NCBI GenBank assembly: GCA_026388415.1
Contig: JAPLJV010000044.1
Span: 1-64,000 of the forward strand
DNA: 64,000 nt
Direction of reading: 5' to 3'
DNA from: Deltaproteobacteria bacterium
Lineage (GTDB): Bacteria; Desulfobacterota; Syntrophia; Syntrophales; JACQWR01
Under the pieces are notes generated by a model. That model saw only the letters and a list, made by a program, of their open reading frames with translations, was not told the origin of the DNA and made no database searches. Below, in pieces: positions 30,948 through 34,560 of this stretch. Numbering within the stretch: the stretch's first letter is position 1; each line of letters opens with the position of its first letter. Made by a program: the position numbers and the translations under genes.

Positions 30948-33572
30948 TCAGTTGGCGCGGGTCTGCCTATAATACCATTGCATCTGCCCTGTGCTGCTGT
31001 CTTCATCAACATTATCCACGGCGATCAGCTTCTCGCCTCGTGCCGGCTGCAAAACCTCTTTGAGTTTCCATACCTCATCCAGCCGGCCAAATGTCCAATA
31101 TTCCTCGAAAGGGGTTACGTATTGTTGCTCACTCAATATCTGGCTCCCCTTGTGGACGATTTTCTGGGCATGGGCGCTGATGCGCACAGAGAACTCATCT
31201 TTGGCAGGGTCGGTGAAATTCCTGACCAGGATTAGTTCCGCCTTGCGCACACAAAGATTCCGGTACTCCACATTCGTTCCTTCCATCTGCCATTGCAAGA
31301 TCTGCTTGCGAAGACTTGCTGCCACCTCCGGGAACAGGTCTGCTTCGGGCGCCTGCGCCGGATCGCAGGACTCGCGGGCCAGAAACACGCTTAAGAATAC
31401 CTGACGCGCCAGTTCGATCATCTGCTGACGATTCCAGAGTTTGTCCGTCCGGACAAGGAAGTTTAACATGCGATCGATGCGCGTTGCCTTTTCTTCAGTT
31501 CCCTTCTCCAACCACGGCCCCGCCTTCCCCTCTTTACCGGCCATCTCGCTATAGATTCCCTGGAGAGTCTGATCGGTCAACATCTCGACGAAATTCTCGT
31601 CCTTGAGGACATCAGATTCGCCCGCCTGTTCGATCTCGCGGAGCAACCAGCCATCGCTCGATCGTTGGAATGTCCAGAACTCCTGAAATTTTGCCGAGAC
31701 TCCATCCCCCCGCAAGAATTTATTCGTACGGTCGTCAACATAGTAATCTCGCGCGGAAGCGGTGATGAGTGCAGTGAATTCGCGCTGATCTGGCCTTTCT
31801 GTGTAGCGGATGTTGACAATGTCCACCTGTTCCACTTTAAGGCCCTCTATCCGGTTTATCTCATGATTCCTCGCCAATCCCCCAAGCTGTGACTTGTGTT
31901 GCCCGAACAGAGCGCGCACGAGAAGGGATTCCATCGGGCCGTAGTCGCGCTTTTCCCAGCATTCTTGTAGCTTGCGGAATGTCGCTTCGGCCAATGCCCG
32001 CAATTCACTCTTTGATACTGAGGAATCTTGCCTGCTGAGGAACTCCAGCAGTTTTTCAGTTTTCATTGCCTTTTTTACCACCACCGAGGGACTGTACGTA
32101 TAGTCAAGGTTGCCTTGGCCTTTATCATTGATGGTCACAAGTTTAAATTTTACCGCCAGGATTAGCACGATCACAAGAAGCAGGATGACGAAGATAAATA
32201 CCCCAAAAGATGACTCGGATTGGCCGCTGCGGCCGCTGCTGCCGCTGCTGGAACTCGATCTGAATCCTCCCCCTTTGTTATGGGTCAAAAAGCCTTCCGC
32301 GAGAAAAGTATGCGGCCCGCCTACACTGAGATTAAAGACCACTTGTCCACGTGCAACAGTTGATGTCTTAACGACTCTGGTTGGGCTTAAAGCGCCATTC
32401 ACCCATGTAAGCACCTTATCCCCGTTCTGAAGTCTGCCAGCCTCAATAAAAGTCCCGTCGAGCAGCCCGACCGGATGGTCTGAAGTGGTCCGCAGCACCC
32501 CTCCCTCCGTCTCGACTGAAAAAATATCGGCGCGAGTTGCGAAAAGTTTTTCCACCTCAGCGTGAATGATCTGTCCGTCCGGACCAACCGTCTGCACTTC
32601 ATCGCCTGCCGAAAGTATCTCGATGGAGATTTCACCTGAGGGCGTGCGGATCCTGGTTCCTGCGGGAAAGCAGCCGCCGCCTTTGTTGTGGACCGCAAGG
32701 CCGCCCGCAATAAATGTGTTCGGATAATCGGTCTGAAGGTTGAAAACGGGGACGCTTTCACGAACCTTCTCCAACGATACAATCGGTTGTTCCAAAAAGG
32801 AACGCCCATCCCAGGCGAAAATATTGTCGCCCACCTTGAGGACCTCAAGCGTCTTGAACGTGCCGCGTCCGACATAGAATGGATGCTCTGCGGTGACCCT
32901 GATGGTTTGACGATCGGTCCTGAGGATGATGTACTCATCCACCCGGTGACGAATGATGTCCTTGACTCTTGTTGAAACCGTGCGACCTTCCGGTGAATAG
33001 GCCAACAATTCATCCCCGGGCCGGACGGCGCTGATGGGCATTTCACTGCCATCGGATCTCATCACCGGGCTTTCGGGAAGAAAGCATCCTTTGTTGTGCA
33101 CCACGACGTCGGCTGAAATATAAGTCCCGCCCGGAAAGACCAGCAAATTATAAGCAGGCAGATTCGCCCGGGACGATTGGATAGACCGGACAGGAACAGA
33201 ATAGGCATTTCCTTGATTTACAAGGTAAATCATGTCGCCTATATTAAGCTGGCGGGCAACGCGGTACTCTCCTGGACCAACCATCATCGGGTGCTCCGAG
33301 GTGACGGTCACCGTCGTATTCCCGGCAGAGATTTCCAAATAACGATCCGCTGAGATTTCGGTTAGCGCCCTTACCGTTCCAACATGGATTTTGTTACCTG
33401 AAAAGCTCCAGACTCGGTCACCAACATGAAGTTTCTCAATGGCGACGACGCCCGAGGGTGTCTGAACCGGGGTACCCTTTACGAGGCAGCCTCCGCCACC
33501 TCGCGCCCATACAGGAGAAGAAGCAAGAAAAAATAAGAGAAGTATCGCCTTTAAAACAATTCCTCTATTCAT
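30948..33572 (-). CDS. Exported Tim44-like protein with three tandem Hint (intein-like) domains
   Basis: 874 residues from the ATG at 33572. A Sec-type signal peptide (MNRGIVLKAILLLFFLASSP) ends near ARGGGG. Three Hint domains follow at 29-160, 163-296 and 301-432. Each begins with Cys, has a block-B His motif (TSEHP 91-95, TAEHP 227-231, TSDHP 363-367), and ends in His-Asn followed by Lys-Gly. Then come a Ser/Gly linker (436-455), one membrane helix (about 456-474) and two Tim44/NTF2-like domains (about 500-650 and 720-870). Ordinary bacterial Tim44-like proteins have only a short Gly/Ser segment in place of the Hint block. The catalytic residues suggest cleavage or splicing. Downstream of lemA and a DUF350 gene, probably one operon. 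Function unknown. Confidence 0.88.
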   Translation of the reverse strand: MNRGIVLKAILLLFFLASSPVWARGGGGCLVKGTPVQTPSGVVAIEKLHVGDRVWSFSGNKIHVGTVRALTEISADRYLEISAGNTTVTVTSEHPMMVGPGEYRVARQLNIGDMIYLVNQGNAYSVPVRSIQSSRANLPAYNLLVFPGGTYISADVVVHNKGCFLPESPVMRSDGSEMPISAVRPGDELLAYSPEGRTVSTRVKDIIRHRVDEYIILRTDRQTIRVTAEHPFYVGRGTFKTLEVLKVGDNIFAWDGRSFLEQPIVSLEKVRESVPVFNLQTDYPNTFIAGGLAVHNKGGGCFPAGTRIRTPSGEISIEILSAGDEVQTVGPDGQIIHAEVEKLFATRADIFSVETEGGVLRTTSDHPVGLLDGTFIEAGRLQNGDKVLTWVNGALSPTRVVKTSTVARGQVVFNLSVGGPHTFLAEGFLTHNKGGGFRSSSSSGSSGRSGQSESSFGVFIFVILLLVIVLILAVKFKLVTINDKGQGNLDYTYSPSVVVKKAMKTEKLLEFLSRQDSSVSKSELRALAEATFRKLQECWEKRDYGPMESLLVRALFGQHKSQLGGLARNHEINRIEGLKVEQVDIVNIRYTERPDQREFTALITASARDYYVDDRTNKFLRGDGVSAKFQEFWTFQRSSDGWLLREIEQAGESDVLKDENFVEMLTDQTLQGIYSEMAGKEGKAGPWLEKGTEEKATRIDRMLNFLVRTDKLWNRQQMIELARQVFLSVFLARESCDPAQAPEADLFPEVAASLRKQILQWQMEGTNVEYRNLCVRKAELILVRNFTDPAKDEFSVRISAHAQKIVHKGSQILSEQQYVTPFEEYWTFGRLDEVWKLKEVLQPARGEKLIAVDNVDEDSSTGQMQWYYRQTRAN
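32277..32672 (-). other. Hint domain 3 (residues 301-432)
   Basis: Starts CFPAGTRIRTPSG, contains TSDHP and VVFNLSVGGPHTFLAEG, ends LTHN before KGGGF. Closest of the three to the polymorphic-toxin type of Hint domain. The residue after Asn is Lys, not the Cys/Ser/Thr needed for classical splicing. Confidence 0.85.
32685..33086 (-). other. Hint domain 2 (residues 163-296)
   Basis: Starts CFLPESPVMRSDG, contains TAEHPFYVGRG and VFNLQTDYPNTFIAGG, ends AVHN before KGGG. Only two residues (KG) separate it from Hint 1. Confidence 0.85.
33093..33488 (-). other. Hint domain 1 (residues 29-160)
   Basis: Starts CLVKGTPVQTPSG directly after the signal peptide and GGGG. Contains TSEHPMMVGPG and AYNLLVFPGGTYISAD, and ends VVHN before KG. 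Confidence 0.85.
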
Positions 33573-33670: not shown

Positions 33671-33940
33671 CTAGTGCAGTGCGGCTATGATACCGCCCAA
33701 TACAGCAGCAGCCACAACAATGCTCAACCCAAGGATGCAGGCGCCCACCACCCTGCCGAAATATTCCGCCACAGCCACATTTCCGCGGACGATCTCCTTC
33801 TCTTCGTCAATGTTCGGCGTCAATCGGTCCATCAGCTTTGGCACGATGGCCGAAGCCAGCAGCACCAGAGCCATGCCGACCAAGCCACCAACCAGAGAAA
33901 AGATCATAGACCATCCAATGTTGCTCAATGTCGCTACCAT
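33671..33940 (-). CDS. DUF350-family small membrane protein
   Basis: 89 residues with three hydrophobic segments (about 5-27, 46-62 absent of charge only in part, and 66-87, ending ILGLSIVVAAAVLGGIIAAL). The polar DRLTPNIDEEKEIVRGNVAVAEYFG stretch, here given in parts (DEEKEIV, GNVAVAEYFG), is the DUF350/YjfL signature. Members of this family often sit with PspA, LemA or flotillin-like envelope-stress genes. A GGGGG-rich ribosome site precedes the ATG. Lies between lemA and the Hint/Tim44 gene, all in one direction. Molecular role unknown. Confidence 0.8.
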   Translation of the reverse strand: MVATLSNIGWSMIFSLVGGLVGMALVLLASAIVPKLMDRLTPNIDEEKEIVRGNVAVAEYFGRVVGACILGLSIVVAAAVLGGIIAALH

Positions 33941-34002: not shown

Positions 34003-34560
34003 TTAAAACTTAACTTGTGGAACCGCACGTTCCTCGGCGCTTTCCATGTAGAAGAAAGCCTCCGTCTGGAAGTTGAACATATTAGCAATCAAGTTGCCTG
34101 GGAACATCTCCACCCGGTTTTTGTATCGCATGGCTGCATCGTTGTAATACTGACGGGAGAAAGCGATCTTGTTCTCCGTTGATGTAAGCTCCTCCTGCAG
34201 TGCAATGAAGTTCTGGTTGGCTTTCAGATCCGGGTAGGCCTCAGCCAGTGCGAAGAGAGATCGCAAGGACTGGGTCAATGCGTTTTCGATCTTTGACTTC
34301 TCTTCGACACTTCCCTTAAACGCTGCCGCCTGCTGGCGGGCCCTGACTACCTCATCGAGGGTTTGCCGTTCGTGGGCGGCATAGCCCTTGACGGACTCGA
34401 TCAGGTTGGAAATCAGGTCATGACGCCGCTTAAGCTGTACATCAATGGCGCTCCAGGCATTTTTGACCTCATTCCGGGCGCCAACGAGACTGTTGTAGAG
34501 GATCATGGCAAGAATGCCCAAAACGACGAAACCAACGATCATTATTATGAAAATCATCAT
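34003..34560 (-). CDS. lemA: LemA family protein
   Basis: 185 residues. An N-terminal membrane helix (MIFIIMIVGFVVLGILAMIL) is followed by YNSLVGARNEVKNAWS, the classic LemA beginning, and a helical bundle with QLKRRHDLISNLIESVKGYA, YPDLKANQNF and ELTSTENKIAFSRQYYND. LemA proteins are anchored at the inner membrane; their role is not settled, with links to envelope stress and protein export. The AAGGAGG lies very close to the first ATG (34560); a second ATG one codon on may be used. First gene of lemA-DUF350-Hint/Tim44. Confidence 0.93.
   Translation of the reverse strand: MMIFIIMIVGFVVLGILAMILYNSLVGARNEVKNAWSAIDVQLKRRHDLISNLIESVKGYAAHERQTLDEVVRARQQAAAFKGSVEEKSKIENALTQSLRSLFALAEAYPDLKANQNFIALQEELTSTENKIAFSRQYYNDAAMRYKNRVEMFPGNLIANMFNFQTEAFFYMESAEERAVPQVKF

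Follow-up and report, generated by a model that had tools for sequence, protein, structure and literature searches.

Tandem Hint domains resembling A-type BILs at a conserved site behind the signal peptide of a bacterial Tim44-like protein family

Accounts of intein-like domains usually treat them either as sporadic parasites or as BILs housed in variable proteins. BIL domains are reported from the hypervariable parts of proteins that are not conserved (PMC5874633; PMC7765530). A-type BILs are able to splice when the +1 residue is no nucleophile; in the proposed mechanism, Asn cyclisation releases an amine that attacks the N-terminal thioester (PMC4031507). Ligation without a +1 Cys, Ser or Thr has been reported for the CthBIL domain (2lwy; PMC4031507) and for the Tetrahymena BIL2 domain (6y75; PMC8616854), and the products of A-type BILs are mainly those of cleavage, with inefficient ligation (PMC4031507, PMC7765530).

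The gene described here lies in a window of 64,000 nucleotides (positions 1 to 64,000 of contig JAPLJV010000044.1) from a member of the Syntrophales and is the sole PF07591 Hint gene found in the window genome. Its product carries three Hint units of 132-134 aa, each with Cys first, a TxxHP motif inside and His-Asn last, followed by Lys-Gly (Table 1). Signal peptidase I would cut between Ala and Arg of V-W-A-R, and the KGGGFRSSSSSGSS.. linker stands directly after Hint 3, followed by a strongly hydrophobic helix. The limits that the initial annotation had set for the three units are exact in the translation, and the layout it had proposed, from the signal peptide through the three Hints, linker and membrane helix to the Tim44 domains, was borne out by Pfam, NCBIfam and a structure model.

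Table 1. Features of the Hint-Tim44 gene and its upstream neighbours in the window.
Feature	Position	Strand	Basis
Hint-Tim44 gene, 874 aa	30948..33572	(-)	ATG at 33572, stop at 30948
Signal peptide, residues 1-23 (ending ..SSPVWA)	33504..33572	(-)	sequence, hydrophobic core, family junction [A/G/S] before RGGGGC
N-extein RGGGG, residues 24-28	33489..33503	(-)	family-wide invariance outside Elusimicrobia
Hint 1 (class A), residues 29-160, Cys29..His159-Asn160	33093..33488	(-)	Pfam, conservation, tree, model
Inter-Hint extein KG, residues 161-162	33087..33092	(-)	sequence
Hint 2 (class B), residues 163-296, Cys163..His295-Asn296	32685..33086	(-)	Pfam, NCBIfam, tree, model
Inter-Hint extein KGGG, residues 297-300	32673..32684	(-)	sequence
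Hint 3 (class C), residues 301-432, Cys301..His431-Asn432	32277..32672	(-)	Pfam, NCBIfam, PDB match, tree, model
C-extein start KGGGFRSSSSSGSSGRSGQSESS, residues 433-455, putative periplasmic Gly/Ser linker	32208..32276	(-)	sequence, hydropathy
Membrane helix, residues about 456-478	32139..32207	(-)	hydropathy; helix 454-485 in model
Tim44-like domain 1, residues 513-649	31626..32036	(-)	PF04280
Tim44/TimA-like domain 2, residues 689-837	31062..31508	(-)	NF033779 stretch below curated cut-off; NTF2-like fold in model
DUF350-type small membrane protein, 89 aa, directly upstream	33671..33940	(-)	PF03994, 27.5 bits vs cut-off 26
LemA family protein, upstream of DUF350	34003..34558	(-)	PF04011, E 4e-58

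The proposed Hint and Tim44 domains were checked by HMM search, and Hint-type models and PF04280 both scored over cut-off. With Pfam, PT-HINT matched with three stretches (E 9e-23, above the curated cut-off), the Hint, Hint_2 and Intein_splicing models also exceeded their curated cut-offs, and Tim44 (PF04280) reached 67.7 bits against a cut-off of 29.6 (E 2e-18). Intein N- and C-terminal splicing regions were above cut-off with NCBIfam, and the Tim44/TimA adaptor model NF033779 matched the second Tim44-like stretch at 39.6 bits, below its curated cut-off of 80. The top PDB sequence match was the Clostridium thermocellum BIL 2lwy (E 2.6e-11); the sequence match to Tetrahymena BIL2 was weak (E about 0.001). 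An AlphaFold model built on 18 aligned family members (mean pLDDT 76.8) displayed three Hint beta-folds, a long helix and two NTF2-like helix-plus-sheet domains, and because its pTM was 0.46 the arrangement of the domains relative to each other is not to be read from it. Foldseek ranked Tetrahymena BUBL1 BIL2 6y75 (TM 0.79 on target), 2lwy (0.81) and mini-inteins first, with the yeast Tim44 C-terminal domain after the BIL and intein structures. Chance or low-complexity similarity is ruled out by several independent Pfam and NCBIfam models, the PDB matches and the fold model.

Judged by sequence, the Hints of this protein are A-type-BIL-like in their catalytic features and new in their location and conservation. 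They share with A-type BILs the Hint fold, a length of about 130 residues (BIL range about 130-155), the Cys1, block-B TxxH and terminal His-Asn in all three units, and a +1 position not restricted to Cys, Ser or Thr, which is Lys at all three exits here; unlike A-type BILs, they number one to four per protein and occupy the same fixed site of a conserved host in more than 10 phyla, with a near-invariant Lys+1. BUBL1 BIL2 (6TMM/6Y75) resembles the family in its two-BIL locus, in the RGG before Cys1 (RGGGG here) and in its reported lysine acceptor, but it is eukaryotic with ubiquitin-like flanks, whereas the Hint-Tim44 protein gave no Ubl match in Pfam. Class 1 inteins have the same catalytic residues, a conserved host site and Hint-less forms with the site intact, but the Hints described here lack a +1 nucleophile and an endonuclease and stand in tandem. 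A homing intein was rejected, as there is no room for an endonuclease. Bacterial exported Tim44/TimA-like proteins agree with the window protein in having a signal peptide, a mature N-terminus with RxGG, a linker rich in Gly, a membrane helix and a Tim44 domain; these relatives carry one Tim44 domain and no Hint, whereas the window protein carries two together with the Hints, beside DUF350. Hedgehog Hog and PT-HINT pretoxins also have the Hint fold, but the Hint-Tim44 protein has no cholesterol region, and Tim44 domains rather than a C-terminal toxin follow its Hints. Hog also lacks a terminal Asn. A toxin or Hog reading was rejected on the same grounds, there being no toxin domain and no sterol region.

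A scan of 84,980 species genomes with two peptide patterns from the Tim44 part (FQEFWTF and PFEEYWT) resulted in 100 relatives, of which 80 were kept, spread over more than 10 phyla; Hint-less relatives are under-counted among them, because the scan ranking used a Hint-bearing query. Nearly all 80 loci had 1-4 Hints right behind the signal peptide and an adjoining DUF350-type gene. By record titles the family occurs in Thermodesulfobacteriota, Myxococcota, Verrucomicrobiota, Lentisphaerota, Kiritimatiellota, Planctomycetota, Elusimicrobiota, Nitrospirota, Acidobacteriota, Pseudomonadota (Legionella), Auribacterota, Sumerlaeota and Riflebacteria, and since the records are mostly metagenome bins, individual labels may be wrong. 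In the window organism's order, three orthologues had two Hints and the others three. The same three-Hint gene was found on a contig of another assembly (L064; 96% identity to the window protein), and 1-4 Hints per protein were found in other assemblies. This contig is titled Anaerolineales and is probably a mislabelled bin, as the other close relatives are Syntrophales. An assembly duplication or artefact was rejected because the three-Hint gene recurs in other assemblies and its three Hints fall in separate old clades. Three consecutive copies, which the initial annotation had found unfamiliar, are therefore real, and the arrangement belongs to a widespread family of variable copy number. 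A search of the available literature found no paper combining Tim44 with a Hint domain.

The Hint tree contained three clades, one per window position (SH-aLRT 95 for A, 96 for B and 88 for C), and by this tree the three positions are three ancient clades. A recent tandem duplication was rejected for the window and holds only for some relatives (ABCC, ABB and BB types). The most frequent architectures were ABC (22, window included), AB (20), C (12, Elusimicrobia) and B (6), with ABCC (2), ABB (2), BB (1), BC (1) and BBC (1) being rarer and the A-B-C order always kept; the h3/h4 position labels were shifted in a few loci by the double counting of a split class A Hint. On the Tim44 tree, architecture required at least 27 changes compared to a shuffled mean of 40, with one locus of C type (L126) scored Hint-less owing to a frameshift. 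Close sisters differed by one Hint (L065 ABC, L085 AB), which indicates that each Hint is individually dispensable over evolution. The HN-KG junctions stayed exact through repeated copy-number change, and the Hints that remain are, as far as their residues predict, catalytically perfect.

Conservation was assessed on 145 Hints that matched the whole model, from 73 proteins. Cys1, the block-B His and the terminal His-Asn were each present in 145/145, with no further fully invariant column inside the domain; the full-model requirement could favour intact ends, and the block-B His lies outside that selection. At the junctions, +1 was Lys in 144/145, +2 was Gly in 145/145 and -1 was Gly in 143/145. 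Partial matches that were inspected lay at contig ends, gaps or frameshifts or were length-variable first Hints, and the latter still begin with C and end with HN. Class A Hints with long mid-domain insertions or deletions and intact Cys1 and His-Asn were seen at L079, L082, L083, L107, L112 and L136. Synonymous codons varied at Cys1, His, Asn and Lys+1 (AAG 96, AAA 60 at the last), and, with Lys+1 and Gly+2 so well conserved, such free variation indicates that selection acts on the protein; dN/dS was about 0.09-0.2 across the Hints, roughly as in the Tim44 part. As a control, Hints of the same phylum in other hosts that also end in His-Asn had Cys (5), Ser (3), Lys (2) or Asn (1) at +1, and because these are mostly Cys or Ser, Lys+1 is a mark of the Hint-Tim44 family. 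The sole +1 exception (HN-Met) comes from Elusimicrobia (L126 / L177), in a copy whose Hint and Tim44 domains are separated by a frameshift, possibly a decaying gene.

The site occupied by the Hints is itself conserved. All members outside Elusimicrobia with a complete start have RGGGG-Cys after the signal peptide, and Elusimicrobia members mostly have RAGGG..-Cys. In Hint-less single-Tim44 proteins from the same order, the Ala at the cut is followed by R-x-G-[GS]-[GS]-[R 23, M 3, G 2, K 2]-S in 30/30 that matched; one further Hint-less protein with the R-x-G-[GS]-[GS] start after Ala occurs at L048, and the window genome has a Hint-less single-Tim44 protein of its own with this start (L031). 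In three Hint-less Elusimicrobia proteins the Ala is followed by RAGGGGGGGGGGG (L191, from a genome that also carries a three-Hint copy), RAGGSGGGFSGG (L142) and RAGGGEGYGYSGG (L184), and Rhizobium Tim44 proteins have RRAGG. The Hints thus break up a mature N-terminus that is conserved, and cutting them out precisely with ligation of the ends would bring back RGGGG-K; the RxGG motif could, however, owe its conservation to export or processing and not to the mature protein. The earlier description of the units as inserts in a low-complexity segment was thereby sharpened to a conserved post-signal-peptide motif, RxGG..., found uninterrupted in Hint-less relatives.

The most likely reading, which we hold with moderate confidence and on sequence evidence, is that the three Hints are A-type-BIL-like, predicted to be catalytically intact, and would excise themselves after export with ligation of their flanks. 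After Sec export and the signal-peptidase cut, the mature protein would start with RGGGG and Hint 1; the Hints would lie in the periplasm and the Tim44 domains in the cytoplasm, with one membrane helix between them. This topology is suggested by the signal peptide, the membrane helix (in 72/75 proteins with a suitable stretch) and the mostly non-negative flanks after the helix (64/72). Cys1, aided by the block-B His, would convert the preceding Gly-Cys bond to a Gly thioester, and the terminal Asn would cyclise, freeing each Hint from the following Lys. The amine of the freed Lys, either the alpha amine proposed for A-type BILs or perhaps that of the side chain, would then attack the Gly thioester, a Gly thioester being the least hindered acceptor. 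The product would be an RGGGG-K(G)-GGG tail resembling the RxGGG(R/K) N-terminus of Hint-less relatives. Splicing would follow export in this order of events; the Hints could also act before export.

Excision with ligation is favoured because the N-terminal catalysis of Hint 1 is invariant though N-cleavage would free only the pentapeptide RGGGG, and a C-terminal cut alone would need neither Cys1 nor the block-B His in Hint 1. Against ligation, Lys+1 is not a classical nucleophile, and the mainly-cleavage outcome of A-type BILs would by analogy count the same way. That Lys+1 makes classical splicing unlikely, as initially annotated, holds for class 1 chemistry and does not extend to splicing generally, since A-type BILs splice without a +1 nucleophile. 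A cleavage chemistry had been favoured on that basis, whereas the evidence leans to excision with ligation, with both catalytic ends invariant despite the RGGGG-only N-extein. Crosslinking of N-terminal fragments, also suggested earlier, would need a real fragment, and only five residues are left after signal peptidase.

Autocleavage without ligation, in which the Hints would cut at one or both ends to leave a Tim44 protein starting KGGGFRSS.. and free periplasmic Hints, is unlikely but to be taken seriously, cleavage being the dominant BIL outcome according to reviews (PMC4031507, PMC7765530) and HN being invariant in the family Hints. It leaves the invariant N-terminal catalysis of Hint 1 with nothing but RGGGG to release, and RGGGG, itself without variation, corresponds to the N-terminus seen in Hint-less relatives.

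An improbable reading is that of a conjugation platform, in which the RGGGG thioester, or an upstream Hint, would pass to a Lys side chain or other envelope amine and give isopeptide products. The RGGGG before Cys1 parallels the BUBL RGG motif (PMC9200820), a Lys-epsilon isopeptide bond is the reported product of BIL2 splicing (PMC8616854), BIL2 also heads the fold matches, and Lys+1 is invariant (144/145); however, Pfam found no ubiquitin-like domain, the N-extein has only five residues, and Lys+1 may be host-derived, as Arg or Lys stands at the matching place in Hint-less relatives. It is likewise quite improbable that the Lys+1 side chain is the true catalytic acceptor of the RGGGG thioester, which would form Gly-epsilon-Lys isopeptides in the envelope without ATP or enzymes. 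If true, bacteria would have a counterpart of the ciliate BUBL reaction, taking place 1-4 times per protein. It is very hard to credit that the Hints lack catalysis and serve as structural spacers or for adhesion. Their clades, each specific to one position, and their long retention do show that they have some role, but the sole invariant residues are the four catalytic ones, and a structural role would not keep these together with both junctions.

Tandem Hints have been retained at one site across more than 10 phyla and fall into three lineages specific to position, which speaks for a function in the host. The near-invariant Lys at the exit junction poses the chemical question of whether natural Hints ligate via a lysine amine, and if they do splice, the family would supply many small natural splicing domains working without a +1 Cys, Ser or Thr. 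A DUF350-type gene adjoins the Hint-Tim44 gene in 70/72 loci with room to see it (downstream in one, L143), some of the relatives' genes scoring below the PF03994 cut-off of 26. LemA lies upstream in 17 family loci, mostly of Desulfobacterota relatives. The Tim44/DUF350 host is probably an envelope-associated membrane unit; the literature search gave nothing useful on LemA/DUF350 and no paper explaining such a unit.

Hints were also seen outside the Tim44 family. A large Cys-rich repeat protein has one internal Hint ending HN-Lys (L058; 372-506 of a 910-aa frame). A separate, unrelated group of exported proteins (L022, L026, L061, L147), among them two with lipoprotein-like signals and one FecR-like, has a single C-terminal Hint ending HN-Cys or HN-Ser; the short Gly-rich tail after it makes a tiny C-extein, and for these proteins a hedgehog-like release or lipid transfer is conceivable.
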